A DNA stretch of 64,000 nt, from NCBI GenBank assembly GCA_030057555.1, contig JASGUU010000069.1:1-64000 (forward strand), in the 5' to 3' direction. This document shows, one piece after another, positions 43,887 through 61,900 of the stretch. The notes beneath the pieces were generated by a model. The model did no database searches. It saw only the letters and a list, made by a program, of their open reading frames with translations, and was not told where the DNA came from. The translations under genes and the position numbers were made by a program. The first letter of the stretch is position 1, and every line of letters starts with the position of its first letter. Source of the stretch: Bacillota bacterium. Lineage in GTDB: Bacteria; Bacillota; Clostridia; Saccharofermentanales; Fastidiosipilaceae.

Positions 43887-45158
43887 ATGGACCAAGCGGC
43901 ACCGCGCGGAACGAGAGACATCCTGCCGCCCGAGAGCGGCATCTGGCAGCAGCTGGAAGAACGCTTCGACGATATCTGCCAGCGCTACGGCTATGGTGAG
44001 ATTCGTCTGCCGAGTTTCGAGCATACGGAAGTTTTCGCCCGGGGTGTCGGCGACAGCAGCGATATTGTACGCAAAGAAATGTATACCTTTGACGACCGTG
44101 CCGGACGCAGCCTGACGCTGCGCCCCGAAGGCACGGCCGGTGTGGCGCGCGCCTTTGTGCAGCATGGCCTGAGCTCGGAAGCCTATCCGGTCAAGCTCTA
44201 CTACCGCATGAACCTCTTCCGCTATGAAGCGGTGCAGAAGGGCCGCCAGCGCGAGTTCAACCAGTTCGGCGCCGAATGCTTCGGCTCCGCCGATCCGGCC
44301 GTCGACGCCGAGGTCATCGGTCTCGTCGACCGCTTCCTCGCCGAGCTTGGCCTCACCGCCGTGCGCCTCGAACTCAACTCCATCGGCTGCCCCGACTGCC
44401 GCAGCAACTACCATGAGACGCTGCGCGACTGGCTGCGCCCGCGCATCGCCTCCTTCTGTCCCGACTGCCAGCAGCGCTTCGAAATGAACCCGCTGCGCAT
44501 TCTGGACTGCAAAGTCCCCGAAGATCAGGCCCGCCTCCATGACGCGCCGCTTCTCTTCGACGGGCTGGATCCCGACTGCCGCGCCCACTTCGAGCGCGTC
44601 ACAGAGCTTCTTGACGCCCAGGGAATCCGCTATCAGATCAACCCGCGCATCGTGCGCGGCCTCGACTACTACAGCCGGACGGTCTTTGAGTTCATCTCCG
44701 AGAACGTCGGGACACAGGGCACGATCTGCGGCGGCGGCCGCTATGACGGCCTCGTCGCGGCGCTGGGCGGCGGCGAGGTACCCGGCTGCGGCTTTGCCAT
44801 GGGGGTGGAACGCCTCCTCATGGAACTCGAGGCCCAGTCCTGCCTGCCCTCCCTGCCTGCCCGCTCCCGCCTCTACCTCGCCTCGCTTGACCGCGCTGCC
44901 CAGACAGCGGCCGCCGGTCTCGCCGACCGCCTGCGCCAGGAGGGCATCACAACCTGCAGCGATCTCGTCGGCCGCAGCCTGCGCGCCCAGATGAAGTACG
45001 CCGCCCGCAGCGGCTTCAGTCATGTCATCGTCCTCGGCTCGGATGAACTCGCCTCCGGCAGCGGCCGCCTGCGCCGCCTCTCCGACGGCGCCGAGGAGGA
45101 GGTCCGCCTCGACGCGGATGCGATCCGCAGCCGCCTTGACCCGCGGACTGCGGATTGA
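43887..45158 (+). CDS. hisS: Histidine-tRNA ligase
   Basis: A 423-residue class II aminoacyl-tRNA synthetase. ATG 43887 (MDQAAPRGTRDILPPE) is the family's usual start; the frame is open to 43827. Motif 2 is YYRMNLFRYEAVQKGRQREF, histidine motif HisA is RGLDYYSRTVFEF, motif 3 is GCGFAMGVERLL, and the C-terminal anticodon-binding domain follows. It is 71 bases before aspS, the common hisS-aspS order in Bacillota. Confidence 0.97.
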   Translation: MDQAAPRGTRDILPPESGIWQQLEERFDDICQRYGYGEIRLPSFEHTEVFARGVGDSSDIVRKEMYTFDDRAGRSLTLRPEGTAGVARAFVQHGLSSEAYPVKLYYRMNLFRYEAVQKGRQREFNQFGAECFGSADPAVDAEVIGLVDRFLAELGLTAVRLELNSIGCPDCRSNYHETLRDWLRPRIASFCPDCQQRFEMNPLRILDCKVPEDQARLHDAPLLFDGLDPDCRAHFERVTELLDAQGIRYQINPRIVRGLDYYSRTVFEFISENVGTQGTICGGGRYDGLVAALGGGEVPGCGFAMGVERLLMELEAQSCLPSLPARSRLYLASLDRAAQTAAAGLADRLRQEGITTCSDLVGRSLRAQMKYAARSGFSHVIVLGSDELASGSGRLRRLSDGAEEEVRLDADAIRSRLDPRTAD

Positions 45159-45229
45159 CCTGCGCCCCATGTCCCGCCGGCACCGGCGATGCAGATCGAT
45201 GCATAAGATATAAAGGAGAACCACCTCAA

Positions 45230-47041
45230 ATGGCTCAATCCATGACCGGCCTTGTCCGCAGCTGCCGCTGCGCCGAACTCGAACACCTGATCCCCGGCCG
45301 CCACGTTACCCTGATGGGCTGGTGCCACCACATCCGCGACCTCGGCCGCATGCTCTTCATCACCCTGCGCGACCGCAGCGGCGAGATCCAGCTCATTGTT
45401 GAGGATCAGGCCTCCGACGGACTGCGCGCCCTTGCCGCTTCCGTCAGGCCCGAATATGTCCTCGCCGCGAGCGGCCGGATCCGCGAACGCAGCGACCCGA
45501 ACCCGCGTATGGCGACGGGTCAGATCGAGCTCGTCGTCGAGGACCTGCGCATCCTCTCGGAATCCGAGACCCCGCCCTTCTACATCGAGCCCGACAGCGA
45601 GGCGAATGAGGCTCTGCGCCTCAGCCACCGCTACCTCGACCTGCGCCGTCCCGACCAGGCCCGGCGCATCATGCAGCGCGACCGCATCGTCCTCGCCATC
45701 CGCCGCTACTTTGCGGACGAGGGCTTCGTCGACATCGAGACCCCGATGCTCGGCCGCTCCACCCCGGAGGGTGCCCGCGACTACCTCGTTCCCAGCCGCG
45801 TCAGGCCGGGCAGCTTCTATGCCCTGCCGCAGTCGCCGCAGCTCTACAAGCAGCTTCTGATGCTCGCCGGTTTCGACCGCTACATCCAGATCGCCCGCTG
45901 CTTCCGTGACGAGGACCTGCGCGCCGACCGCCAGCCCGAATTCACGCAGGTCGACCTCGAGATGAGTTTTGTCGGCCCGAACGAGGTGATGGACACGGTA
46001 GAGAGAGGTGTGGCAAAGGTCGCGGCCGAGACCTGTGGCATCGAAATTCCCCTGCCGCTGCCGCGGCTGACCTGGGACGAGGCGATGCGCCGCTTTGGTT
46101 CTGACAAGCCCGACCTGCGCTTTGACATGGAGCTGCAGGACGTCAGCTCTCAGCCCGTCATCACGGGCGCCGGCTTTGGCCCCTTCGACGAGGCTCTGGC
46201 TGCCGACGGCTCCGTCATCGTCCTCGTCGTCCCCGACGGCGGCCGCCTCTCGCGCCGCGAGATCGACGACCTCGCGAATTTCGTCCGGACCTATCGCCTC
46301 GGCGGCCTGCCCTGGCTCGTCCCCGGCCCGCCTCTGCGCGGCTCGATCCGGAAGTTCTTTGATGACGCCGCCACGGCCGGCCTCGCCAGCGCCGTCGGCG
46401 CCGGCGCGAATGACCTCATCCTCTTCGGCTGCGGCCCGACTTCCCTCGTACAGACCGCGATGGGCCAGCTGCGCGTGGAAGTAGCCTCGCGCATGGGTAT
46501 GATTGACCCCGACCGCCACGAGCTGCTCTGGGTCACCGAGTTTCCCCTCTTTGAGGCCGGCGAGCCGGGCGACGACCGCCTCTACGCCAAGCACCATCCC
46601 TTCACCCGCCCTCTCGACGCCGACATGGACCGCCTCGAGACGGATCCGCTCTCGGTCCGCGCCGCAGCCTATGACATCATCATGGACGGTGTGGAGCTCG
46701 GCGGCGGCTCGATCCGCATCCACGAATCCGATCTGCAGCAGCGTATGCTCGCGCTCCTCGGCTTCACGGAGGAAGAGGCCCGGGCCAGCTTTGGCTTCCT
46801 GCTTGAGGCCTTCCGCTACGGTGCCCCGCCCCACGGCGGCCTCGCCTTCGGTCTCGACCGCTTCGTCATGCTGCTGACCGGCGCCCGCAATATCCGCGAG
46901 GTGATTGCCTTCCCGAAGGTCCAGAGCGCCGCCGATCTGATGACGGGAGCCCCGGCTCCGGTCGCCCCCGAACAGCTGGAGGAGCTCGACCTTCTGCTCG
47001 GCCCGACCGCCGCCCAGGCCGTCACCGCGGGCGAATCATGA
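45230..47041 (+). CDS. aspS: Aspartate-tRNA ligase
   Basis: A 603-residue bacterial-type AspRS. ATG 45230 follows AAAGGAGA; the frame is open to 45155. An OB-fold anticodon domain (TLMGWCHHIRDLGRMLFITL) leads to the catalytic core with QSPQLYKQLLMLAGFDRYIQ, motif 2 RCFRDEDLRADRQPEFTQ, the GAD insertion, and motif 3 GGLAFGLDRFVMLL. Whether it is discriminating or also makes Asp-tRNA(Asn) cannot be told, and no gatCAB genes are present here. The stop overlaps lepB by four bases. Confidence 0.97.
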   Translation: MAQSMTGLVRSCRCAELEHLIPGRHVTLMGWCHHIRDLGRMLFITLRDRSGEIQLIVEDQASDGLRALAASVRPEYVLAASGRIRERSDPNPRMATGQIELVVEDLRILSESETPPFYIEPDSEANEALRLSHRYLDLRRPDQARRIMQRDRIVLAIRRYFADEGFVDIETPMLGRSTPEGARDYLVPSRVRPGSFYALPQSPQLYKQLLMLAGFDRYIQIARCFRDEDLRADRQPEFTQVDLEMSFVGPNEVMDTVERGVAKVAAETCGIEIPLPLPRLTWDEAMRRFGSDKPDLRFDMELQDVSSQPVITGAGFGPFDEALAADGSVIVLVVPDGGRLSRREIDDLANFVRTYRLGGLPWLVPGPPLRGSIRKFFDDAATAGLASAVGAGANDLILFGCGPTSLVQTAMGQLRVEVASRMGMIDPDRHELLWVTEFPLFEAGEPGDDRLYAKHHPFTRPLDADMDRLETDPLSVRAAAYDIIMDGVELGGGSIRIHESDLQQRMLALLGFTEEEARASFGFLLEAFRYGAPPHGGLAFGLDRFVMLLTGARNIREVIAFPKVQSAADLMTGAPAPVAPEQLEELDLLLGPTAAQAVTAGES

Positions 47042-47640
47042 GTCCGTCAGACGGCATCCGGCCGCGCCGGACTCCGGACGGAGAGCAGCGGCCCGCCCGC
47101 GCCGCCTCCTTCTGGCTCGAGGTCCTCGACTGGGTCAAGTACATCCTGATCGCCGTCGTCCTCGGCCTCGCCATTACTACCTTTGTCCTGCAGCGAAACG
47201 AGGTGGTCGGCAACTCGATGTACCCGACCCTCCACGACGGCGACCAGCTCTGGGTCGAGAAGATCACGCATCACTTTGGCGGTGTACGGCGCGGTGATAT
47301 CATTACCTTCAGCACGGCGAACCTCCCGGGCGGCCATCGTGAGGAGGATCTCGTAAAGCGCGTGATAGGCCTGCCCGGAGAGCGGCTCGAGATCCGCGAC
47401 GGAGCCGTCTACATCAACGGCGAGCGACTCGACGAACCTTACCTCCGCGAGGACATTACGACCGAGCCCCGCCTCGTCGGCTTCGCCAGCCTGACCCTCG
47501 CCTCCGACGAATACTTCGTCCTCGGCGACAACCGCCCCGACAGCAGTGACAGCCGCGTCTTCGGCCCCATCCGCGCGGACGATGTGATCGGCGAAACCCT
47601 GATCCGCGTCTTCCCCCTGGAGCGCTTCGGACGCCCCTGA
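47038..47640 (+). CDS. lepB: Signal peptidase I
   Basis: A 200-residue membrane protease that removes signal peptides from secreted proteins such as the giant surface protein nearby. One membrane anchor (34-51), the catalytic serine S60 in GNSMYPTL, the general-base lysine K107 in LVKRVIGLPGE and the conserved GDNRPDSSDSR near the end are all present. The N-terminal 30 residues are hydrophilic and cytoplasmic. It begins in an ATGA overlap with aspS. Confidence 0.96.
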   Translation: MSPSDGIRPRRTPDGEQRPARAASFWLEVLDWVKYILIAVVLGLAITTFVLQRNEVVGNSMYPTLHDGDQLWVEKITHHFGGVRRGDIITFSTANLPGGHREEDLVKRVIGLPGERLEIRDGAVYINGERLDEPYLREDITTEPRLVGFASLTLASDEYFVLGDNRPDSSDSRVFGPIRADDVIGETLIRVFPLERFGRP

Positions 47641-47664: not shown

Positions 47665-49503
47665 ATGCAGCATGCCAAGCCCGACCCGGCCGCCGACGCC
47701 CGCCGCCGCAGCCTGATCCGCAATTTCTCGATTGTGGCGCATATCGATCACGGCAAATCCACCCTCGCCGACCGCCTGATCGAGGCCACCGGCGTGCTTT
47801 CGCAGCGCGAGATGCAGTCGCAGGTGCTCGACAACATGGATATCGAGCGCGAGCGCGGCATCACGATCAAGGCCCAGGCCGTCCACATGATCTACCGCGC
47901 CCGGGACGGCCAGGACTACGAATTCAACCTGATTGACACGCCGGGCCATGTCGACTTCAGCTACGAGGTCTCACGCAGCCTCGCCGCCTGTGACGGTGCC
48001 ATCCTCGTGGTCGACGCCGCCCAGGGTGTCGAAGCGCAGACGCTCGCGAACGCCTACCTCGCGATCGACGCCGACCTCGAAGTTCTGCCCGTCATCAATA
48101 AGATTGATCTGCCGGCCGCCCGCCCGGACTTTGCCCGCGAAGAGATCGAACATGTCATCGGCCTCGACGCCTCTCACGCCCCGTTGATCTCGGCAAAGGA
48201 GAACCTCAACATCGAGGATGTCCTCGAGGCCATCGTCGCCCATCTGCCCCCGCCCGGGGGCGACAGCGCCGCGCCCCTGCGGGCGCTGATCTTCGACTCG
48301 AAATATGACAGCTACCGTGGTGTCATCGTCCACGTGCGGGTGATGGACGGCCAGGTGCGCACCGGCGACATCATCCGTATGATGCACACCGGGGCGGAGT
48401 TCACGGTGACCGAGGTCGGCTATTTCCGTCCGGGCCAGCTCTTCGAGACGGGCTTTCTCGAAGCCGGCGAGGTTGGCTATCTGACCGCCTCGATCAAGAA
48501 CGTCCGCGACACCGCCGTCGGCGACACGATTACGCTGGCCGAAAGACCGGCGGCCGAGGCCCTGCCCGGCTATCGGCCGGTGCAGCAGATGGTCTTCTGC
48601 GGTCTCTATCCCGCCGACAACGCACGCTACCCCGATCTGCGCGACGCCCTCGAACGTCTCCAGATCAATGATGCGGCCCTGTCCTACGAGGCCGAGACAT
48701 CGGCGGCGCTCGGCTTCGGCTTCCGCTGCGGTTTCCTCGGCCTGCTGCACTACGAAATCGTACAGGAGCGTCTCGAACGTGAGTTCAATCTCGATCTGGT
48801 CTCAACGGCCCCTTCCGTTGTCTATCACGTGCGCCTGAATGACGGCAGCGAACTGGTGCTCGACAACCCGACCAACATGCCCGATCCTGCGCAGATCGAC
48901 GAGATGCAGGAGCCGATTGTCGAACTGACCGTGATCACGCCGCGGGAATTTGTCGGCAACATCATGGAGCTCTGCCAGCAGCGCCGCGGCAGCTATCTCG
49001 ACATGACCTATCTCGACGCAACCCGCGTCGACATGCGCTATGACATGCCGCTGAACGAAATCATCTATGACTTTTTCGATGCCCTGAAGAGCCGTTCGCG
49101 CGGCTATGCCTCGATGGACTACCGCTTTAAGCGCTATGAGGCCTCCGATCTCGTGAAGCTCGATGTCCTTCTGAACGGGGAAGTTGTCGATGCCCTGAGC
49201 TTCATCGTGCACCGTGACAAGGCCTACGAGCGCGGCCGCCGTATCGCAGAGAAGCTGAAGGAGAACATCCCGCGCCACCAGTTCGAGATTCCGATCCAGG
49301 CTGCGATCGGGGGGAAGATTATTGCCCGCGAGACCGTGCGTGCCTTCCGCAAGGACGTTCTGGCGAAGTGCTACGGCGGTGATATCACACGGAAGAAGAA
49401 GCTGCTCGAGAAGCAGAAGGAGGGCAAGCGCCGCATGCGCCAGGTCGGTTCCGTCGAGGTGCCACAGGAGGCATTCATGGCGGTGCTGCGCCTCGACGAG
49501 TGA
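47665..49503 (+). CDS. lepA: Elongation factor 4 (LepA)
   Basis: A 612-residue ribosome-associated GTPase. G1 is [10 protein letters not shown]2/G3 [11 protein letters not shown] and [12 protein letters not shown], and G4 NKID. The LepA-specific C-terminal domain has [18 protein letters not shown] and ends [21 protein letters not shown]. It is 24 bases after lepB, the frequent lepB-lepA pairing. AGGAGAGAC precedes the ATG. Confidence 0.97.
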
Positions 49504-49531
49504 GTCATAGCGGATTGGGTTCGGGCGGACG

Positions 49532-49597
49532 CGACCGCCTGAATACCACGAGATGCGGTCGCCACGACCGCCTGAATACCACGAGATGCGGTCGTGG
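49532..49597 (+). repeat. 33-bp tandem duplication and palindrome in the tRNA-Leu leader
   Basis: CGACCGC, a 16-base spacer and GCGGTCG occur twice (from 49532 and 49565, 33 apart). The second GCGGTCG is the 5' end of the tRNA. In the second copy the arms extend to CCACGACCGC (49562-49571) and GCGGTCGTGG (49588-49597), ten perfect pairs between leader and tRNA. Confidence 0.85.
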
Positions 49598-49672
49598 TGG
49601 AATTGGCAGACACGCTGGATTTAGGTTCCAGTGACGGGAGTCATGCAGGTTCAAGTCCTGTCGGCCGCACCA
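49588..49672 (+). tRNA. tRNA-Leu (anticodon UAG)
   Basis: An 85-base gene including an encoded CCA. The acceptor stem is GCGGTCG / CGGCCGC with one G-T pair; the D-arm begins TGGTGGAATTGGCAGACACG, typical of leucine tRNAs. The anticodon stem CTGGA / TCCAG carries the loop TTTAGGT (anticodon TAG); there is a long variable arm and the T-loop GGTTCAAGTCC. It reads CUN codons. It lies 84 bases after lepA and is followed by its own terminator. Confidence 0.97.
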
Positions 49673-49676
49673 GAGG

Positions 49677-49720
49677 ACAGCCGCCCATGCAGAAAACGGC
49701 ATCCGGGCGGCTGTTTTTTT
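49677..49720 (+). terminator. Terminator after tRNA-Leu
   Basis: ACAGCCGCCC pairs with GGGCGGCTGT, followed by a run of seven or more T residues. Confidence 0.9.
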
Positions 49721-49970
49721 ATATATGTATGTAAAATACGGTGAAGTTTCTTGATGCGTTAAGCATTCGCTAAGACCCATCTAATTTGCTAAATGAGAAG
49801 AAGGCAGATAATAGATGAGGAGAAACGGAAAAGCCAACAGGGTTTTGCTTTTTAGGAACGATTTGTTGTGCTATGATGCTAACTTGCTGCACAGCGATAT
49901 TTATATTCGACCATCTTTCTGAATGAGTAGGGCCAATGGCGTCTTAGCCTGGTCTACGGGAGTTGTTGCC
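49721..49970. other. AT-rich leader of the giant surface protein gene
   Basis: A marked drop in GC compared with both sides. A TATGAT at 49872-49877 could be a -10 but no matching -35 is evident. An ATG at 49923 in frame with the giant gene has no Shine-Dalgarno site; GGGAG lies nine bases before ATG 49971. Confidence 0.4.
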
Positions 49971-52900
49971 ATGTCGTGGATGAAATCCCCAAAGAACACG
50001 AAGCAGATCCTCAACAAAGCGCTGAGCCTGCTCCTGCTCGCTGCCTTCCTGCTGGCGCTTTTTACACCGAATCTGGTTGACGCCGGAGACGAAGGCGAAG
50101 CAGTGAATCCATCTCTCTCTCCCGAGACCATCGTGACGGAGATGGGAGCGGATGAGGTGCCTCCCGCGTCAACGGAGCAGGGCACAGACGAGGAGCTTCC
50201 TCAGGCAGACGAGGAAACCACAGCGTCCGTCCCCGCTGAAGAGAGCGCGACGCTGGAGGAACAGCCGCCTGTTGAAGGTCAGGAGTCAGAGCCCGCAGAC
50301 ACGGAGCTGCCGTTGGATACGAGTGTGCCTGTCGAGGAGTCCGAGTCTGCGGACACGACCCCTGCCACAGAGGACCTGCAGCGTTCCAGAGGGGCAACGG
50401 AAACGACGCCCGTGACCAGAGGAGGCGGGGATCCCGGCGCTGTTTTCCTGTACGAAATCATCGCTGAGGGCACGGCGGTACGCGTGACCGGCTGGACGGG
50501 CACGGAGACGACCGTGACCATCCCCGAGACGATCGAAGGCCTGCCCGTGACGGAGATCACCAGAGGCGATGTCTCATCTTTTCAGGCGCGTGGACTGACG
50601 GCTGTCAGCATCCCAAAGACCGTTACGAAGATCGGCGACTACGCATTCGCCGAAAATGACATCGCGACACTCGACATTCCCGCCGACAGCAGCCTGGTGG
50701 AAATCGGCGCCTACGCTTTTGCCGACAACCTCCTCACCGGCTTCACCGCACCCTCGACCCTGCGGATCATCGGCGGACAGGCTTTCGCACAGAACAGACT
50801 CACCGCCATCAGTCTGAATGTCGGCCTGGAGTCGATTGGCAATGAAGCCTTCGCGATGAACTGTCTGACGGAGGCGACCGTGCCGGACTCGGTGACGAGT
50901 TTTGGCAGCAGCGTCTTTGACGGCAACGGTGGCCGCTTCGTCAAGGTCTATACGGACAGCTCCGCCGTTCCCCCATACGAGAACAACGGTCCCGTGTCCT
51001 TTGGCTATGTTGTCAATCCGATTACCGTGACGATCAAATATATCGATCAGAAAACGCGCGCTGAAGTCATGTCGAGTGTCACGCTGGGCGACGACATGAC
51101 AGATGCCAACGGCGTCTTTGTCAAGGACGTGGAAATGACCTATGAGCCGCCGACCCTGTCGGGCTACTATGTCGAGCCTTCCATTACCTTTACGCCGGAT
51201 CGGGACGGCTATGTCCTGACCATTGAATACATCCCCGAGGGACCGCCGACACTGACCTGTCCCGCCACCATCCGGCTGCCGGAGGGTCTCACGCCTGAGG
51301 AAGCCGAGGCACGGATTCTCGATGCCATATCAGCTGTGGACTATACAGGGAAGGACATCTCGGACAGGGTGACGGTCGACCTCAGCGGGCTCGATGTGGG
51401 GACGAACGGCTTCTACTCCATCACGATCAGTCTGACGGATGACTACGGCTACGAGATCAGTGAAACCGTGCAGGTGCAGGTGGGTGCCTACGACTGGTTC
51501 AACCATGAAATCGGCGGTGGCTGGGTACTGGGCGACTTCACCTTCTCCGCCGATGGAAAAACCCTCAACGGTCTCAGTTCGCAGGGCATCACGAAGCTGC
51601 GCAACCTGCCTGCCGGCGCCAGAAATCTCGTCCTGCCGGCGCACAGCTACAACAACCCCGAAGTACCGATCATGGCGATTGCGAGCCAGGCTTTTTACAG
51701 CAACATCTACAACGTTCCACTTGAGACAGTGGATTTCTCGGCGTTGAAGGAGCTGCGGACGATCGGCAGCTACGCGTTCTACTCCTACAGCCGGCCGCGG
51801 GCGAGTGCGATCAGCACGGTTATCGGCTTTAACGAACTGACGAAGCTGGAATCGATTGGCGACTATGCCTTCAGGGGGACGACCGCTGCGTTCGATCTCG
51901 ACGGCTTTAACAACCTGCAAACGATCGGATATTCCGCCTTCGCAAGCTACAGCACGAGCTATCAGGGACCCACGATCACGCTTGGCTCCCTGCCCGCTCT
52001 GACAAGGATCGGCGCCTCCGCCTTCAGCGGTGCAACGGTGCCGGTGGCGGATCTGCGCGGCATGCCCAATCTGACCGGCATTGAAAGCTCCACCTTTTAT
52101 TATGCCAAAGTGAAGGAGATTTACTTCCCCGAGGTCGATCACAACTTTTCGATCGGCTATCAGGCATTTTACGGAGAAAGCAGCGAGCTCACGATGATTG
52201 ACTTTACGCCGATCGCGGAGCATCTCACCTCGATCGGCTCAGAGGCGTTCAGACATGTCTACAGTCCCTCCAATCTCGCAACCGTGGTGGTCTGGCCCGA
52301 CATGCCGAAGCTCTCCTCCGTCGGAAGCCGGATCTTCTGCAGCCGCAATCTGGACACGAGCCTCGATCTCTCGGGCAGTCCGCTGCTCGTGACGATTGGC
52401 TCCAATGCCTTTGAGCAGGCGGGCCTGACCGGGGTCGTGCTGCCTGAGACGGTGGAGAATATCGGTTCCTCTGCCTTCTACAACAACAGGATCACGGAGC
52501 TCGATTTCAGTCTGCTGCCCGCCCTGAAGACGATTGGGAATTCCGCCTTCCAGACGAACCGCTTCACTGCCGTTGATCTCAGCAACCTGGCCAGTCTGAC
52601 CAGCATCGGCGATTCTGCATTCAGATACAATCAGATTGAGTCGGTGAATCTGGATGAGCTGCCGCAGCTGAAAACGATCGGCAACTATGCCTTTGCCAAC
52701 AACAGAATCACGGACCTCACGTTCGGCGCTTTGCCGGAACTCGAGGTCATCAAAACATATGCGTTCTACAGCAACCAGCTGGCCAGCCTGACGATTGCCA
52801 ATCTGGAGAAGCTGAAGCGCATTGAGAATTACGCCTTTTACGCGAACAGACTGACGGATCTGACCATCAGCGACAATCCCGAGCTGAGTTCGCTCGGGAA

Positions 52901-55900
52901 CTACACGTTCTACAGCAACCAGCTGGCCGAAGTGACCTTGAACAACCTGCCCGGGCTCCTGGAGCTCGAGCCCTACGTTTTTACCAGCAATCCCGGCCAC
53001 GATGCCTATTACAACAACGTCGTCGTCTGGGATCTGCCGGCCGAAGCCTCTGTCATTCCCTCAAAGGCGAACTACCTCGTCAATCCTGATACCGAAGAGC
53101 CCCTGACAGGTCCCTGGGTCGCCGATGACTTCACCTACACGGTCACGAACGGCGAGGCCACGATTACGGGCTTTTCCGAGCAGGGAGCCAAGCGCTTCGG
53201 CTCGGGTGTGAGACCGGTTGTCTTCCCGGCAGGTGATCCGGACGGGCTTCCCGTCGTCGGCATCGCGGATTATTCCTTCGCCAACAAAAACATCGGTTCC
53301 ATCGATCTCACGGGCATGACGAAGCTGCGCACGATCGGGGTGAATGCGTTCTATAACAACGCGCTGAGCGAGGTCAGCTTCAACGGCCTCGACAGTCTCA
53401 CAGAAATTGGCAACAATGCCTTCGGCAACAACAAACTGACCGAGCTGGACCTCGGCATTCTGCCGAAACTGACCAGAATCGGCGGCTCCGCCTTCTCCGG
53501 CAATACGATTTCGAAGCTCAAGCTTGACGGCGCTGTTTCTCTCGAGTCCATCGATTCATCCGCCTTTCAGGGCAACCGCATTTCGGAGCTCAACTTCGGC
53601 TACCTGCCGAAACTGCGGCTGATTGGCAGCTCCGCCTTCTACAGTCAGGGCGGCGATCCTCTCAGTCTCGATCTGTCGGGTCTTCCCGCCCTGGAAAGCA
53701 TCGGATCCAGAGCGTTCGAGAGCACGAACCTGGTCTCTCTCAACTTTGGCGATCTGAAGAATCTCACGATCATCAATTCTGATGCCTTTGCGAGTCACAG
53801 GCTGACAGGCGAGCTGGATCTGTCAGGTCTGGATGCCCTGACCACAATCGGTTCCGATGCCTTTGAGTGCTATTCGTCCAGTGCCTACGGCATCACAAAC
53901 GTCTTATTCCCCGCGAGCGGCAACCTGCTCCACATCAACAACTATGCCTTCCGCTACAACCGGCTGACGGAACTGGATCTGAGTCCGCTGAACAGACTCA
54001 GCACGATCGGCAGCTATGCCTTTGCCTACAACTACATCGAAAACATCATATTCCCTCAGGATCCACCTCTGACATCCATCGGCAGCTACGCCTTCCAGTC
54101 CAACAGGTTGACGGAGCTGGATCTGAGGCCGCTCAGCAGGCTGAAGTATCTCTACTATTCGACCTTCGGCTACAACGCAATCGGCGATGTCTGGGCCCCG
54201 GACAGCCTCACCTCGCTCAACAATTATACTTTCATGTATAACAAGTTGAATGTGGGATCCTCTGTTTACTCGGAAGCGATTATTCACATTGGTGATCCGA
54301 CAGGACTCAGCAACTACCTGTCCGGTGGCTGGGGACATCTGATTAACCCCAAAAAACTCTACTTCACCTACAAGGATCGCGAAGGCAACGAAATCCTGCC
54401 GAGCCGGACCGAGTACTACAAAGGCAGCAATGCCAGTGAAACCTATTATGCGCCTGACATGGCCGAGTATCTGGCCAATCCGGCTTCGAAGACGGTCACG
54501 TTCGAGGAGCATCAGAACGAGTACTTCATTAACTTCGTCTATGACAAGCTCGAGTTCTTCGAGACAGACGCGTTTACACTCGGACATACCAATGTCGGCA
54601 CGAACCGGGCCTATGTCGGAAATCACCTGTATACGAATCTGACGCTCGCACTTTCGTCCGGGCAGGAGACTTACGAGAACGTCGAGCTGCGCGTCTATTA
54701 CAATCCGGAATATATCAACAGCGCGGAGGTCACGGCACCGTTGATGGGCGATGCCTATACGATCACGAAGCCGACCGACGGCAAACCTTACATTTCCTTC
54801 CATTTCCCAAAGCTCGTCGGTGGCCAGTCCTTTGTAATTCCCGTAACCTGGGCCTTCAAGACGGATTACACGCCGCAGGATCAGGCCGAAATCCTCTACA
54901 CGCAGCTGAGAAGTGCTGACAATCAGGTGCTGGCCTTTGCCACCGATGGGGCAGGGCATCCCGCGAACCCGACGATTGAGGCCTACTACCATGAGCCCTA
55001 CATAGAAAAGGGTGCCGTGGGAACGAACCAGTACAACGGTGGCCCCCGCGTGGCCGGCAGCTTCACGACGACGGAAATCGAGGGTGAGGACATCGTTCAC
55101 GTAGACGTGCCCGTTGATGTGGCGTACAGCTTCCGCATCATGCAGACGGCCAACACGTCCAACTTCGACCGCAATATCGAGACGATCACCTACATCGACA
55201 CGCTCCCGACCTATCAGGCGGTGGAGGACGGACAGATTGTCACCAGGACGGCCGTCATCAATTTGTCGACGAGCCCCGGCTGGTCCTACTATGATCCCGT
55301 CAGCGAAATGCCCGTCGAAGGCCCGACGGCCTACGGCATTGTGACCGTGCCCAACTACGACAAGGACTTTGCCTACTCGTATCCGACGCTGAATCTGCAG
55401 TTCCCCGGCGGCATCAAGGATCAGACGGTCAAGAATCAGGTGGAGGCCAGGCTCACACCGGCGAACAGGCCGGACGGGGAGCCGATCATCGTGACCTCGG
55501 ACGATGTCAACATCTCCCTGATCGCGGGTACGGTGCCGAATCCGCCCGTATATGTCACGGTGACAACGCTGACCAAGACAGTCGCGCCCCGGACGGTGCT
55601 CGACTATCAGCCGACGAAGGAGGCCGCGGGCTTTACCTGGCCGGTGCGCTTTACCGTCGGCACCGATGATCTCGCCCTGGCCAAGGTCTTCACCAATGTG
55701 GTCTTCGAGGACTTCGCCCTGGACGACCGTCTGGTCTACACGAAGGTCCAACTGCCCAGCACGGGCCATGTGGCGGTCGTGAAGGCCTGGCGGGCCGACG
55801 GTACGGAGATAGAGGATTACGGCGGGGAGACCAGCGGTGGTGTCTTCGAGTTCCCGCCCTACAGTCCGGGCATGGAACGCATCGACAGGATCACGGTCGA

Positions 55901-58900
55901 TCTCGGCGACAGGGAGGTCATGACCGGCTACAGCATCAACGTGATGACGACCTTTGCAAATCCCTCGGATGAGACCGCGGACGACTACGCGTACTACGAT
56001 ACGGAGAATCATGCCAACAACTACATGCCCAACTCGGCCAGAGTCACGGCGAGCTATACGGCGGAAGGCGAGTCCGGCGACTACAGCTCCGGGACGGTGA
56101 GCGACCGCGTCCAGATCCTGCCCTTCACCCTGAAGGCAATTCCGGACAAGACCCAGACCTTCCGTTCATCCGAGCCCGGCCAGGATCCGACCAGCCAGCT
56201 CCCGCACTATCCCGGCGACGAGGGGACATACACGATCAGTATCAAGAGGAGCCTCAACGGCCGTCCCTTCACCATGACGGACGCCGACCTGCCGATCGAA
56301 AACTTCCGCATGGTCGACCTGCTGCCGCTCGACATCGTTGTCAAACCGGAAGACATCCGGCTGTCGGCGGAGTTTGCCGCCCAGCCCGGAGCCGGCTTCG
56401 AAATGCTGGCCGACTACGGCTCGACGGGCCGTGTCGCGATCATCTTCACGGCTGATTCCGTGGCCGCCAACGTCACGACGGTCGCCAGCATTGATGCCAA
56501 GATCGATCTGGCGATGAGCGCCGGCTACCATAAGAATGATCTCTACATGTCCTTCAACACAGGGCCGGGGCATGACTGGGAATACGGACAACCGGTGACC
56601 GCCGATGATCTGGGCGACAGTCCTGAAAATCCCTACATGTACGACTATGTCTCGCTCTTACTGGTGAAGGCGCAGGCGATGAATGCCATCAAGTATGTGC
56701 GCAATGCCAGACTCGACACGGCTACGGGCCGGCTCGTCGGCACCGGCACCTGGACCGAGGGCATCTATACCGGGGATGAGGAGTATTTCCAGTATCGGCT
56801 TTTCGTCAAGAATGACACCGTCGAAGATCGCGACAAAAACGAGATCTATGATGTCTTCCCCCGCTACCTCGATCGCATGATTCAGATGAACACGCAGGGC
56901 CAGCGCGCCAACCGCGGTTCGGCCTTCAGCAACAGGATTCTCGCTGCGCGACTCGAAGGGACGACGGCGGACGAGTTCCGGATTGAGTACACGACCGATA
57001 CCACGGTCGCCAACATTCCGAATGGCACCGAGGCGGGCGTCTACCTCAGGGCCCGTAGCTGGGTTCCCGCCGGTCCCGACGGGTCGGCCCCGGAGGGTGC
57101 GACGGCCATGCGTATCATCCCGAAGGACGGCTCCACCGGCATGATCAAAAAGGACGATACCCTCATCGTCATCGTCGATGCCCAGGCTCCGCCGTACAAC
57201 GCCGATACCTCGGGCAGACGGGGTTATAACAGTTTCGTTCGCATCGACGATTCGCTCGAGACATTTATCGAGGTCCCGTCTGTCTGGAACGAAGTGCCGA
57301 CGCCGCTGGGCACGCTGCGGGTAGGCAAACGCTCACGCACCTTCGACCCCGCGAAACCCGGAGTCGTCGCCTATGATGTGCCGCTGGCCGGCGCGGAGTT
57401 TACCCTCTATTCCGAAAGTGGCATTCCACTCAGAACCGCTGTCAGCAATGACGATGGCTTCGCCGTCTTTGAGGATCTGCGGGTAGGCACATATCTGCTC
57501 GCCGAGACGGCTGTCCCAGCGGGCCATTATGAGCCGGAGGAGAGTACGCAGATCAAGGTGGAGAGGTCGGTCTGGGAGAAACAGGCCAATCTCGTCTACA
57601 CGGTCGGTCCGTTCTACAACGAGCCGGTCGTCAGCGGAACGGTTGTGATCGAGAAGCGCAACGCAGCCGGCGAGATCATGCCGGGCATCTCCTTTGCCCT
57701 GACGGACACGGCGAGCGGCGACAAGTACATGGCCACGACCGGAAGCGACGGCCGGGCGACATTTGCCAATGTTCCCTACGGTGCCTATACGCTCACCGAG
57801 ACCAACGCCCCCAGGCTGCTGGCGCCGATTGCTCCGATCATGGTCAAGATCGATGTGCCGAACAAGGTGGTGGACTACACCGGTACGGCGGCGCTGCGCA
57901 ACGACAGGGCCAATGTGGCTCTGTTCAAGCTCGGCATACGCGGCGCACTCGACAGCAGCAAAGACCTGTCGCAGTACACGAAGTCGGACGGCACCGTTGT
58001 CGCCGAATCGTGGCGCTTCGAGATCCGGAACCTGACAACTGTCAGCGAGTCGCCGCGACAGGTGAACTACACCAGCAGCCATGTGAGAAACGGCTTCAGG
58101 ATCGAGGAACTCAGGGTCGGCGATCTCTACGAGATCGAGGAGCTTTCGGGCCCGGCGCAGACCCAGACCGTGTACATTCACAACAAGACTGTCTACCAGT
58201 TCAGGATCAACAAGGCCGGTGTGCTGGTTGACGCCGATGGCGAGCCCTTCAGGGCGCAGAGCATCTACTTCCCCAACGCACGGAAGACGGTCGACGGCGC
58301 CGTTGTCGTCACCAAGGTAGATACCGAAGGAGCGCCGCTGCAGGATGCCGTGTTCAGTCTGGCCATGCTGAACAAGGCCACCTCGACCTTCGAGGTGCTG
58401 TACGAGGCAAATTCAGATGCCGACGGCCGGGTGACATGGGACGAGCTCGAACCCGGCAGCTACGAAATCCGGGAAGTCGCGGCGCCGGTGGGCTATATCA
58501 GAACCAGTGATGTCTACCGCTTCGTCGTCGAAGATTTCGCTACGACAAGCATGCTGACCAATTCCAGCTACGCGCATCGAGAGGGAGGTCTGACCCATAA
58601 CTTCAGCTTCACGGCCGTCAACCGGGAGATCAATCTCAGCCTCGTCAAGCGGCATCTGGTGGCCACCAATGTGCCCGAGGCAGAGAAGGATGCCCTGCTC
58701 GCGCAGAATCCCGCCTACAGGGCGGTCGCGAAACCGGTGGGCTATGACGTCTATGAAGTTCTGGCCGGCGCCACGTTCACGCTCTACAGGGAAGTCGACG
58801 TGAATGGTGTCAAAGTCAGGGAGGTCATCGCCGAGAATCTCGTTTCCGATGCGGAGGGCCTGATTTCCGTGGACGGAATCTCCGGGTTCAGCTGGGACGA

Positions 58901-61900
58901 GACGGCCATCTACTATCTCGAAGAGACGGCGACAGTGGACGATACCTGGCTGCTGCCGGAAAAAATGCTGAAGATCGACCTGCCGGCCGTGATCCGGAGC
59001 AATCCCACCGGCGTGGCCACTGTCTTCATGGAGAACCAGAAGAAGGTCGGCGAGATCCTGGTCTCCAAGTACGACCGCTATACAGGTACCAAGCTCACGG
59101 GCATCACATACACGCTCTACAGAGGGACGAAGGACAACTACCTGAGCGATCCCAATCCGGTCGTGAAGAAAACGGGTTCCTCCGGCTATCTGAAGTTTGA
59201 CGGTCTGCTGCCGGGAAACTATATCCTGGAAGAGACGGCGACCCTGGAAGGCTACATCCGGGATGAGACGCTGTATGAGATCGAGGTGACGCCCGACAAT
59301 CGCTACTTCTACTACTACCTCTACAACATGAGGGCTGGTGAGCTGCTCGACATCCCGGTCAAAAAGGTCTGGCTCGGCGAAGTGCCGGATTATGCCGAGG
59401 GCGAGGGCCTCGTCGTCGAGCTCTACGAAGGGACCAGTACCACGCCCATGGAGTCTGCGCTGCTGACGGCGGAGGGCGGCTGGTCGCATACCTTTGCGGG
59501 CCTGCTCAAGCGCGACAACCAGGGCAGGGTCTACACCTATGTCATCCGCGAAGGGGCCATCCCTGCGGGCTACGAGATCGCGGTCGGCGAGGGCACGGTC
59601 AAGGGTTCCTCCTACGGCCTCGACGTGACAGTGGCGGATGAAGTGGTTCTGAAGAACCACGCTCTGGGCGACCTGACGGTGACAAAGACCTGGCAGGAGC
59701 GCTATGACGAACTCCGGCCGGCTGCCGTCGTGGTGACCCTGATGCGGGCGGCATACAACGCCGATACGGGCGCCTATGGTGAATTCACCAGCCAGGGCGA
59801 TCCTGTCAACATTTCCGCTGCGACGGGTTGGGCCCATACCTGGACCGGGCTCAAGACGCATGATGTGGATGGCAGGCCCTATCGCTACAAAGTCGTCGAG
59901 GCCGCTGTCACAGGCTATCAGCTGGTGGCCCACACACCGGCCCAGGTTGAACTGACAGGCGGAGCCGAGGCCGATATCGAACTCGTCAACCGCCAGTATC
60001 TGACGCAGAAGGCAAGAAAAGCCTGGTCCGACAATGCGCCTGCGGTCAAGCCGGAGATTGTATTCCAGCTGGTGAGAAAAACGGACGACATGACCGACTT
60101 TGAGCTTGTCGACGGGGCGGCTCTCAAGACCATTCCTGACGGCTCCGCGGAGGTCGAGTGGAACGGCCTGCCGGCCACGGACGAAGAGGGGAACGTCTAT
60201 ACCTACTCCGTTTATGAGGGCTGCATCAACGACGACGATGAATTTGTCCAGCTGATACCGGAGAACTACCGCGCCGAAACCACCTTTGCACCGATCCTGA
60301 ATGAGGACAACGTCGAGATCGGCACGGAGATCATCGTAACCAACACCTGGCAGGAGACCAGTCTCACGGCAACGAAGACCTGGTCGGGCAATGCGCCGAC
60401 GGTCAAGCCGGAGGTCGAACTGGTGCTGCGCCAGAACGGCGAGCTCTACAACGGCACGGGTGTGCCGGTCACCCTCCAGAATGGAGATACCGAGGCCAGC
60501 TGGAAGAAGCTGCCGCGCTACTATTACACAGTGGATGCGGACGGGACGGTGACCGAGCATGAGTATCGCTACTCGGTCGATGAGATCAATGTCCCGGAGA
60601 GCTATGACAAAGTCCTCGACAGCGATACCGGGGTCCGGAACGAATATCATTCCGTCGTTCTGGAGGCGAGGAAGATCTTTGACCTCGACCTCGTCGAGGA
60701 AGACTTTGCCGGAACGGACATGAGGCCGGCGGAAATCCGCTTCAGCCTCTACAAGTCGACGTACGATGCCAATACGGGCACGACCTCCATGCAGAAGTAT
60801 GATGAAGTCGTTCTCGACGGTGTGGTCGACGCGGACATCACGGATGCCGGCGAGATTGAAGAGTGGCACTACATCTGGAACCGTCTGCCGAAGTACTATG
60901 AGGTCGTGGATGCGGATGGTTCGATTACGCGCCATGAGAACGAGTACAGGGTCATTGAAGAGATCATCCCGAGGTACTACGAGCTGCTGGGCTCGGAGGA
61001 CGTATCTGAGGGAGAGCTCTTCAGCTGGCAGGTTACAAACCGCTACCGCAACGCCTTTAATGCCCACAAGACCTGGGATATCGGCGCCAAAACTGTGGCC
61101 GGGCTCGGTGGTCTGCCGTCCGTTCAGCTGCAGCTGTACCGCGGCATCGTTCTGGACGACGGGACGCGGGTAGCTACTTCCGACTGGACGGAGACGGTCG
61201 GCGAGCCCGTCACACTGGACGGCCAGGCGGACGATCCCCTGCCGGGCGTCAGCCGCGAGACGACACAGGCCGACAGCCTCACCTGGACCTATGCCTGGTT
61301 CGATCTGCCGATTTACGGTGAGTGCACGGTTGACAGTCTGGCGGACTATGGCATCGCAAACGGGGATCGCGTGCGCTACTTCTACTACGTCGAGGAGGAC
61401 AGCACGGCGCCGGCTCTGGAAGACTACTCGCTCGATGCCATCAGTTCGGCCTCGACACTGCTCGTCAACCGTCTCGACAAAACAGACTTCACGGCGAAGA
61501 AGGAATGGGTCGACGGACCTGTGGACGACAGACCCGCGGTCGAATTCGTCCTCTACGCCGACTACCTCGACCCGGCTACGAATGAGAGGAGCACGGCCGA
61601 GGAGGTCAGACGTGTCACACTGGACGGTGTGGCTGACGATACCGGTGAAACCGGGTCCTGGACCTGCCATTTCGAGAATCTCAGGCATTATGTCAAGAAC
61701 GCGGATGGCAGCTACCTGAAGGATGCTGACGGACAGCCGGTTCTCTACCGCTACTTCGTAAAGGAAGAGAACGTACCGACCGACTACCGGATTTCGAGCG
61801 AGACGGACAGCACGATTACAAACAGCTATGTCATTCCGAAATTTGACATCGAAGTCAAAAAGACCTGGAACGGCGGCTATCCTGCCGACTACGAGCGGAT

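Follow-up and report, generated by a model that had tools for sequence, protein, structure and literature searches.

A ten-base complement of the tRNA 5' end in the leader of a tRNA-Leu(UAG) gene and its possible origin by duplication and template switching

The leader of a tRNA-Leu(UAG) gene in the window (the whole stretch of DNA that was analyzed, 64,000 nucleotides) contains the segment CCACGACCGC (49562-49571), which is the exact reverse complement of GCGGTCGTGG (49588-49597), the first ten bases of the tRNA. This had been claimed by an original prediction made from the letters of the sequence and was found to be correct. It is rather probable that the arrangement goes back to a duplication across the leader/tRNA junction which was later perfected by homogenisation and template switching, and that the cell tolerates the resulting leader, whose pairing with the tRNA would be at most a mild drag. 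The features of the locus are compiled in Table 1.

Table 1. Features at and around the tRNA-Leu(UAG) gene (positions in the window)
Feature	Position	Strand	Basis and remarks
Class II tRNA synthetase, Asp/Lys/Asn family, with GAD domain	45155-47041		
Signal peptidase	47038-47640		
lepA (elongation factor 4)	47665-49503	+	ORF, Pfam LepA_C
tRNA leader, 84 bases, without -10-like box	49504-49587	+	Sequence, promoter scans
Outer leader helix, 5' arm	49516-49528	+	Predicted; partners 49568-49577 and 49579-49581, leader folded alone
Repeat copy 1	49532-49561	+	Repeat search; first antisense arm 49532-49538, decoy of the tRNA 5' end 49555-49561
CCA joining the two repeat copies	49562-49564	+	Bases 1-3 of the 10-base antisense arm
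Antisense arm CCACGACCGC	49562-49571	+	Complement of tRNA bases 1-10
Repeat copy 2	49565-49594	+	Last 7 bases are tRNA bases 1-7
tRNA-Leu(UAG), CCA encoded	49588-49672	+	ARAGORN, Rfam RF00005; acceptor stem with one U-G wobble, position 5
Terminator-like hairpin ACAGCCGCCC/GGGCGGCTGT, then T run	49677-49721	+	Read by eye

The junction between leader and tRNA is covered by two 30-base copies (49532-49561 and 49565-49594) which are identical at 30/30 positions and spaced by 33 bases. Since copy 2 runs into the tRNA with its last seven bases, which are tRNA bases 1-7, copy 1 ends in a 7-base decoy of the tRNA 5' end. The predicted 33-bp tandem duplication with a decoy thus holds with regard to the decoy and the spacing, but identity is restricted to 30 bases, as the two units diverge in their last three bases (copy 1, CCA; copy 2, TGG). 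Searching the window for the 30-mer with up to three mismatches revealed the two sites, compared to none in 100 shuffles. A dispersed repeat was ruled out: within the draft genome (2.9 Mb), the 16-base core of the repeat (up to two mismatches) is confined to these two sites. The identical stretch includes the U-G base at acceptor position 5. Among 35 tRNA-Leu(UAG) genes, a G-U pair in the acceptor stem occurs in two, that of the window and that of locus L061 from a distant genome. As judged from the repeat, the decoy may be the source of the U at position 5; a point mutation fits equally well.

That the second copy is an assembly artefact and absent from the cell is conceivable for a draft genome of 90 contigs, but very improbable. 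The two copies together span 63 bases, which is shorter than a usual sequencing read, they are joined by a unique CCA, and a perhaps related two-unit leader exists in the congener described below.

To what extent the complement is unusual can be seen from 128 distinct pairs of tRNA and leader, comprising 43 of the window genome (G000; 43/43 Rfam tRNA matches entered the comparison), 36 of its congener G001 (36/39 matches) and 49 of other genomes. The window tRNA-Leu alone possesses, within 100 upstream bases, an exact complement of ten bases to tRNA bases 1-12. The runners-up are one complement of eight, one of seven and six of six bases. When the 100 upstream bases of the window tRNA were shuffled by mononucleotides, complements of at least ten bases arose in 98 of 200,000 trials. 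By duplex energy between leader and tRNA, the window again ranks first of 128, with -24.4 kcal/mol versus -18.2 kcal/mol for the next pair. The complement of eight bases belongs to a tRNA-Ser(CGA) gene of the window genome (L170); it overlaps with a TATAAT box and is therefore probably not wholly contained in the RNA.

The genus is represented by two genomes in this comparison, so that the leader of one relative (G001, locus L005) could be aligned with that of the window. G001 shows the same gene order of lepA, leader and tRNA-Leu(UAG). The distance from the lepA stop codon to the tRNA is 118 bases there, with a TATAAT box 83 bases before the tRNA, and its leader carries a related decoy and antisense segment at the same place. 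Over the decoy/antisense region, 28/39 alignment columns are identical, and 44 of 2000 shuffles scored as well. The repeat unit of the window was matched as well by three and 17 of 5000 shuffles, respectively, when compared with each of the two G001 units; between the G001 units themselves the match is weak, being equalled by 150 of 10,000 shuffles. Fourfold sites of the compared lepA stretch agree at 116/233 positions, hence the two species are far apart. A mutational origin is favoured because G001 shares the gene order, the decoy and the antisense segment, and because the copies in G000 are identical at every position despite this distance. The identity of the copies suggests that they were homogenised recently or arose by a new duplication in the window lineage.

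The antisense segment of G001 forms seven Watson-Crick and two G-U pairs with its tRNA and one mismatch, compared to 10/10 Watson-Crick pairs in the window. The two species differ at four of ten bases in the antisense arm and at one of ten in the tRNA arm. The G001 duplex ranks 12th of 128, and fourth of the 36 G001 tRNAs. According to the folding model, the pairing potential is weakened rather than erased in G001, because the isolated hairpin of antisense segment and tRNA still reaches -15.8 kcal/mol (window, -18.0 kcal/mol). No alignable outgroup leader was found, and the change between the species could also have run in reverse, with G000 keeping an ancestral palindrome that decayed in G001. 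Moreover, G000 may have undergone a recent duplication of its own, because the evidence for a duplication in G001 is weak and the similarity of the leaders modest.

A somewhat unlikely explanation, though one to be weighed, is that the leader hairpin itself has been selected. Pairing of decoy and antisense segment would keep the leader off the tRNA, or would protect the 3' end of the lepA mRNA after the RNase P cut, and the likeness to the tRNA would be a by-product. The strength of this hairpin is indeed similar in the two species (-11.5 and -11.1 kcal/mol), and all of its seven pairs are possible in both, in spite of one two-sided change and two one-sided changes to G-U. In G001, the pairs are predicted with probabilities of 0.98-0.99 for five of the seven and of 0.64 for the weakest. 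The last 50 leader bases of G001 are more stable than shuffles (z -3.0), and so are leader plus tRNA of the window (z -2.13; 5/200 shuffles as good). Stable hairpins between promoter and tRNA-Leu(UAG) were also seen at L013 and L016 (G033 and G050, one genus) and at L012 (G011); their sequences differ and the last 50 bases gave z values of -3.2 to -3.9. On the other hand, four random transitions leave all seven pairs intact in 161/1001 cases, so that the conservation of the pairs lies within chance and is no proof of selection. The last 50 leader bases of the window are not unusually stable (z -1.0), and folding of the whole G000 leader predicts a different partner for the decoy, namely the first antisense arm (0.97-0.98). 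Furthermore, a search of 188 genomes of the order with the leader (E up to 0.05) detected no similar leader; matches came from seven genomes, the window's own and six with short matches of 17-43 bases (E 0.013-0.049), a search which missed even the G001 leader and is too weak to show absence.

The original prediction had further proposed that a hairpin of leader and tRNA competes with the acceptor stem and could act as a folding switch. Folded alone, the leader is predicted to reach -33.8 kcal/mol with an inner helix (49531-49540/49551-49562) that is enclosed by an outer one (49516-49528/49568-49581); in this fold the antisense arm stays single-stranded over roughly half of its length (49563-49567). 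Once about 11 or more tRNA bases have emerged, the best predicted fold changes to an upstream hairpin plus the pairing of antisense arm and tRNA. In the full precursor this pairing has a predicted probability of 0.98-0.99, the acceptor stem being displaced, in partial support of the original prediction. Already 20 upstream bases suffice to lower the acceptor-stem probability of the window tRNA to 0.01. Such a loss is, however, frequent for ordinary tRNAs. Adding 84 upstream bases reduced the mean acceptor-stem probability from 0.90 to 0.47 for the 43 G000 tRNAs and from 0.91 to 0.61 for the 36 G001 tRNAs, and in the sorted list 11 of the 79 tRNAs precede that of the window, although this control is harsh, as much of the upstream sequence is promoter DNA and probably untranscribed. 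Folding as proof of a switch was therefore rejected; the predicted fold alone is weak evidence, because ordinary tRNAs with upstream sequence often lose the acceptor stem too.

A switch in which the antisense arm pairs in turn with the leader and with the 5' strand of the tRNA, and thereby controls RNase P cleavage of tRNA-Leu(UAG), must be regarded as improbable. The differing predicted folds of leader and precursor, the strongest duplex of the 128 pairs and the fairly stable isolated hairpin in G001 would agree with such a switch. By contrast, the full leader of G001 is predicted to fold on its own, with the acceptor stem retained (0.95-0.97) and pairing of antisense segment and tRNA at 0.01 or less. 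Alternative structures conserved among relatives were not seen in the one relative compared, and no RNA family besides tRNA was detected in Rfam between positions 49000 and 50200 at E values up to 1. A regulatory switch is thus not supported. The comparison of relatives envisaged by the original prediction had a mixed outcome: G001 comes near to contradicting it by its normal acceptor stem, though an imperfect palindrome is present there. A more elaborate version appears quite improbable, namely a self-made processing switch in which the arm chooses between decoy and tRNA, the rate of leader folding or lepA translation sets the maturation of tRNA-Leu(UAG), and the sister species has been tuned towards the open state. 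If a switch did exist, it would represent a tRNA precursor controlling its own maturation.

Any influence of the arm presupposes that it is part of the RNA. Applying a 4/6 match with A2 and T6 as definition of a -10-like box, the 150 bases preceding the window tRNA contain none, and a separate scan of 49200-50000 gave no promoter-like site on the + strand. Therefore, the antisense arm is probably present in the precursor. Such boxes are common elsewhere. They occur in 37 of 42 G000 tRNAs examined (42 of 43 passed the filter for longer upstream sequence) and in 33/35 tRNA-Leu(UAG) loci, from which the window thus differs. The other exception is L031 (G046), where the tRNA-Leu(UAG) starts two bases after the lepA stop codon, which suggests a lepA-tRNA transcript that is cut by RNase P. 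We infer that the window tRNA is probably transcribed by read-through from the lepA side. The order of lepA and tRNA-Leu(UAG) is seen in at least 14/35 loci examined, in which a motif test detected the lepA end within 400 bases upstream; this count is a lower bound, locus L014 having just 252 bases upstream.

The leader/tRNA junction of the window is A(-2)U(-1), as in 18/35 tRNA-Leu(UAG) loci. PMC9433436 describes this pair as the optimal one for the RNase P of E. coli. Several pre-tRNAs are known, according to PMC10731613 and PMC9433436, in which the leader can pair with nucleotides close to the cleavage site and is inhibitory (anti-determinants of bacterial RNase P). The window leader resembles them, since its ten predicted pairs likewise lie near the cleavage site and form the strongest duplex of the set; it differs by a complement of ten bases together with a decoy copy, and is known here in silico only. 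As such inhibition is documented (PMC10731613), an effect on RNase P of the known kind, a mild brake, is possible by analogy. Normal processing is an assumption, because ViennaRNA prefers the hairpin of leader and tRNA by about 6 kcal/mol (full precursor, -70.5 kcal/mol; with constrained cloverleaf, -64.7 kcal/mol), energies and probabilities which, like all those given here, leave out tertiary folding of the tRNA, its modifications and RNase P binding.

The preferred explanation, a mutational origin with a tolerated leader, would comprise the following steps. First, some 33 bases spanning the leader/tRNA junction would have been duplicated in tandem, perhaps before the two members of the genus diverged, which would have created the decoy and the antisense segment. 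In the G000 lineage, replication errors would then have rendered the direct copies identical, by homogenisation or by renewed duplication, and template switching between the inverted arms would have perfected the palindrome to 10/10 pairs. The tRNA, having no recognisable promoter of its own, would be expressed together with lepA, the leader would largely fold on itself during synthesis, RNase P would cut normally at the A(-2)U(-1) junction, and pairing of the leader with the acceptor stem would impede processing mildly at most. The sequence, the repeat, the leader of G001 and the lack of a -10-like box by the tests applied are observations, from which we infer the order of events, the mutational mechanisms, read-through and normal processing. 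Template switching is reported, in PMC7202029 and PMC8794818, to make imperfect palindromes more perfect, and quasipalindrome switches have been described there to create and mend RNA hairpins. As in those cases, the window has close inverted arms that are more perfect than those of the relative (ten Watson-Crick pairs versus seven plus two G-U pairs and one mismatch). What sets the window apart is that a direct repeat contains both arms and that a tRNA gene supplies one of them with its 5' end. Provided that the mutational reading is true, the locus would be a compact example from nature of repeat homogenisation that may have extended into a tRNA gene (U-G at acceptor position 5) and built a strong antisense hairpin which is tolerated by the cell. 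It would also allow one to measure how much pairing between leader and tRNA can be overridden by RNase P.

Finally, the original prediction had named a scar of insertion at the tRNA gene as an alternative, which would involve insertion or excision of a mobile element. A short direct repeat does span the junction, and tRNA genes are common integration sites. Integrases usually use the 3' half of a tRNA, though, whereas the repeat sits at the 5' end. The one match to the phage-integrase family PF00589 in the draft genome lies on contig C41, the window being on C69, and further copies of the tRNA 3' end were confined to two other tRNA-Leu genes. Moreover, lepA is located upstream here as in at least 14/35 tRNA-Leu(UAG) loci. 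With neither an att-type repeat nor an integrase nearby, as judged by the search for this one family and for the tRNA 3' end, the proposed scar is unsupported and deserves hardly any credence.

When contigs were scanned for LepA and 80 of 587 confirmed loci were taken (identity up to 79%), a tRNA-Leu(UAG) was encountered in one of the 80, L061. The terminator-like hairpin downstream of the window tRNA was not picked up by the scan, its loop probably exceeding the 8-base limit set there. Beyond this hairpin, an ORF of 4644 residues (49923-63857, + strand) encodes BspA-type leucine-rich repeats, SpaA and Cna_B domains and, at the C-terminus, a hydrophobic stretch with a basic tail; as judged from this composition, its product is a giant surface adhesin-like protein.
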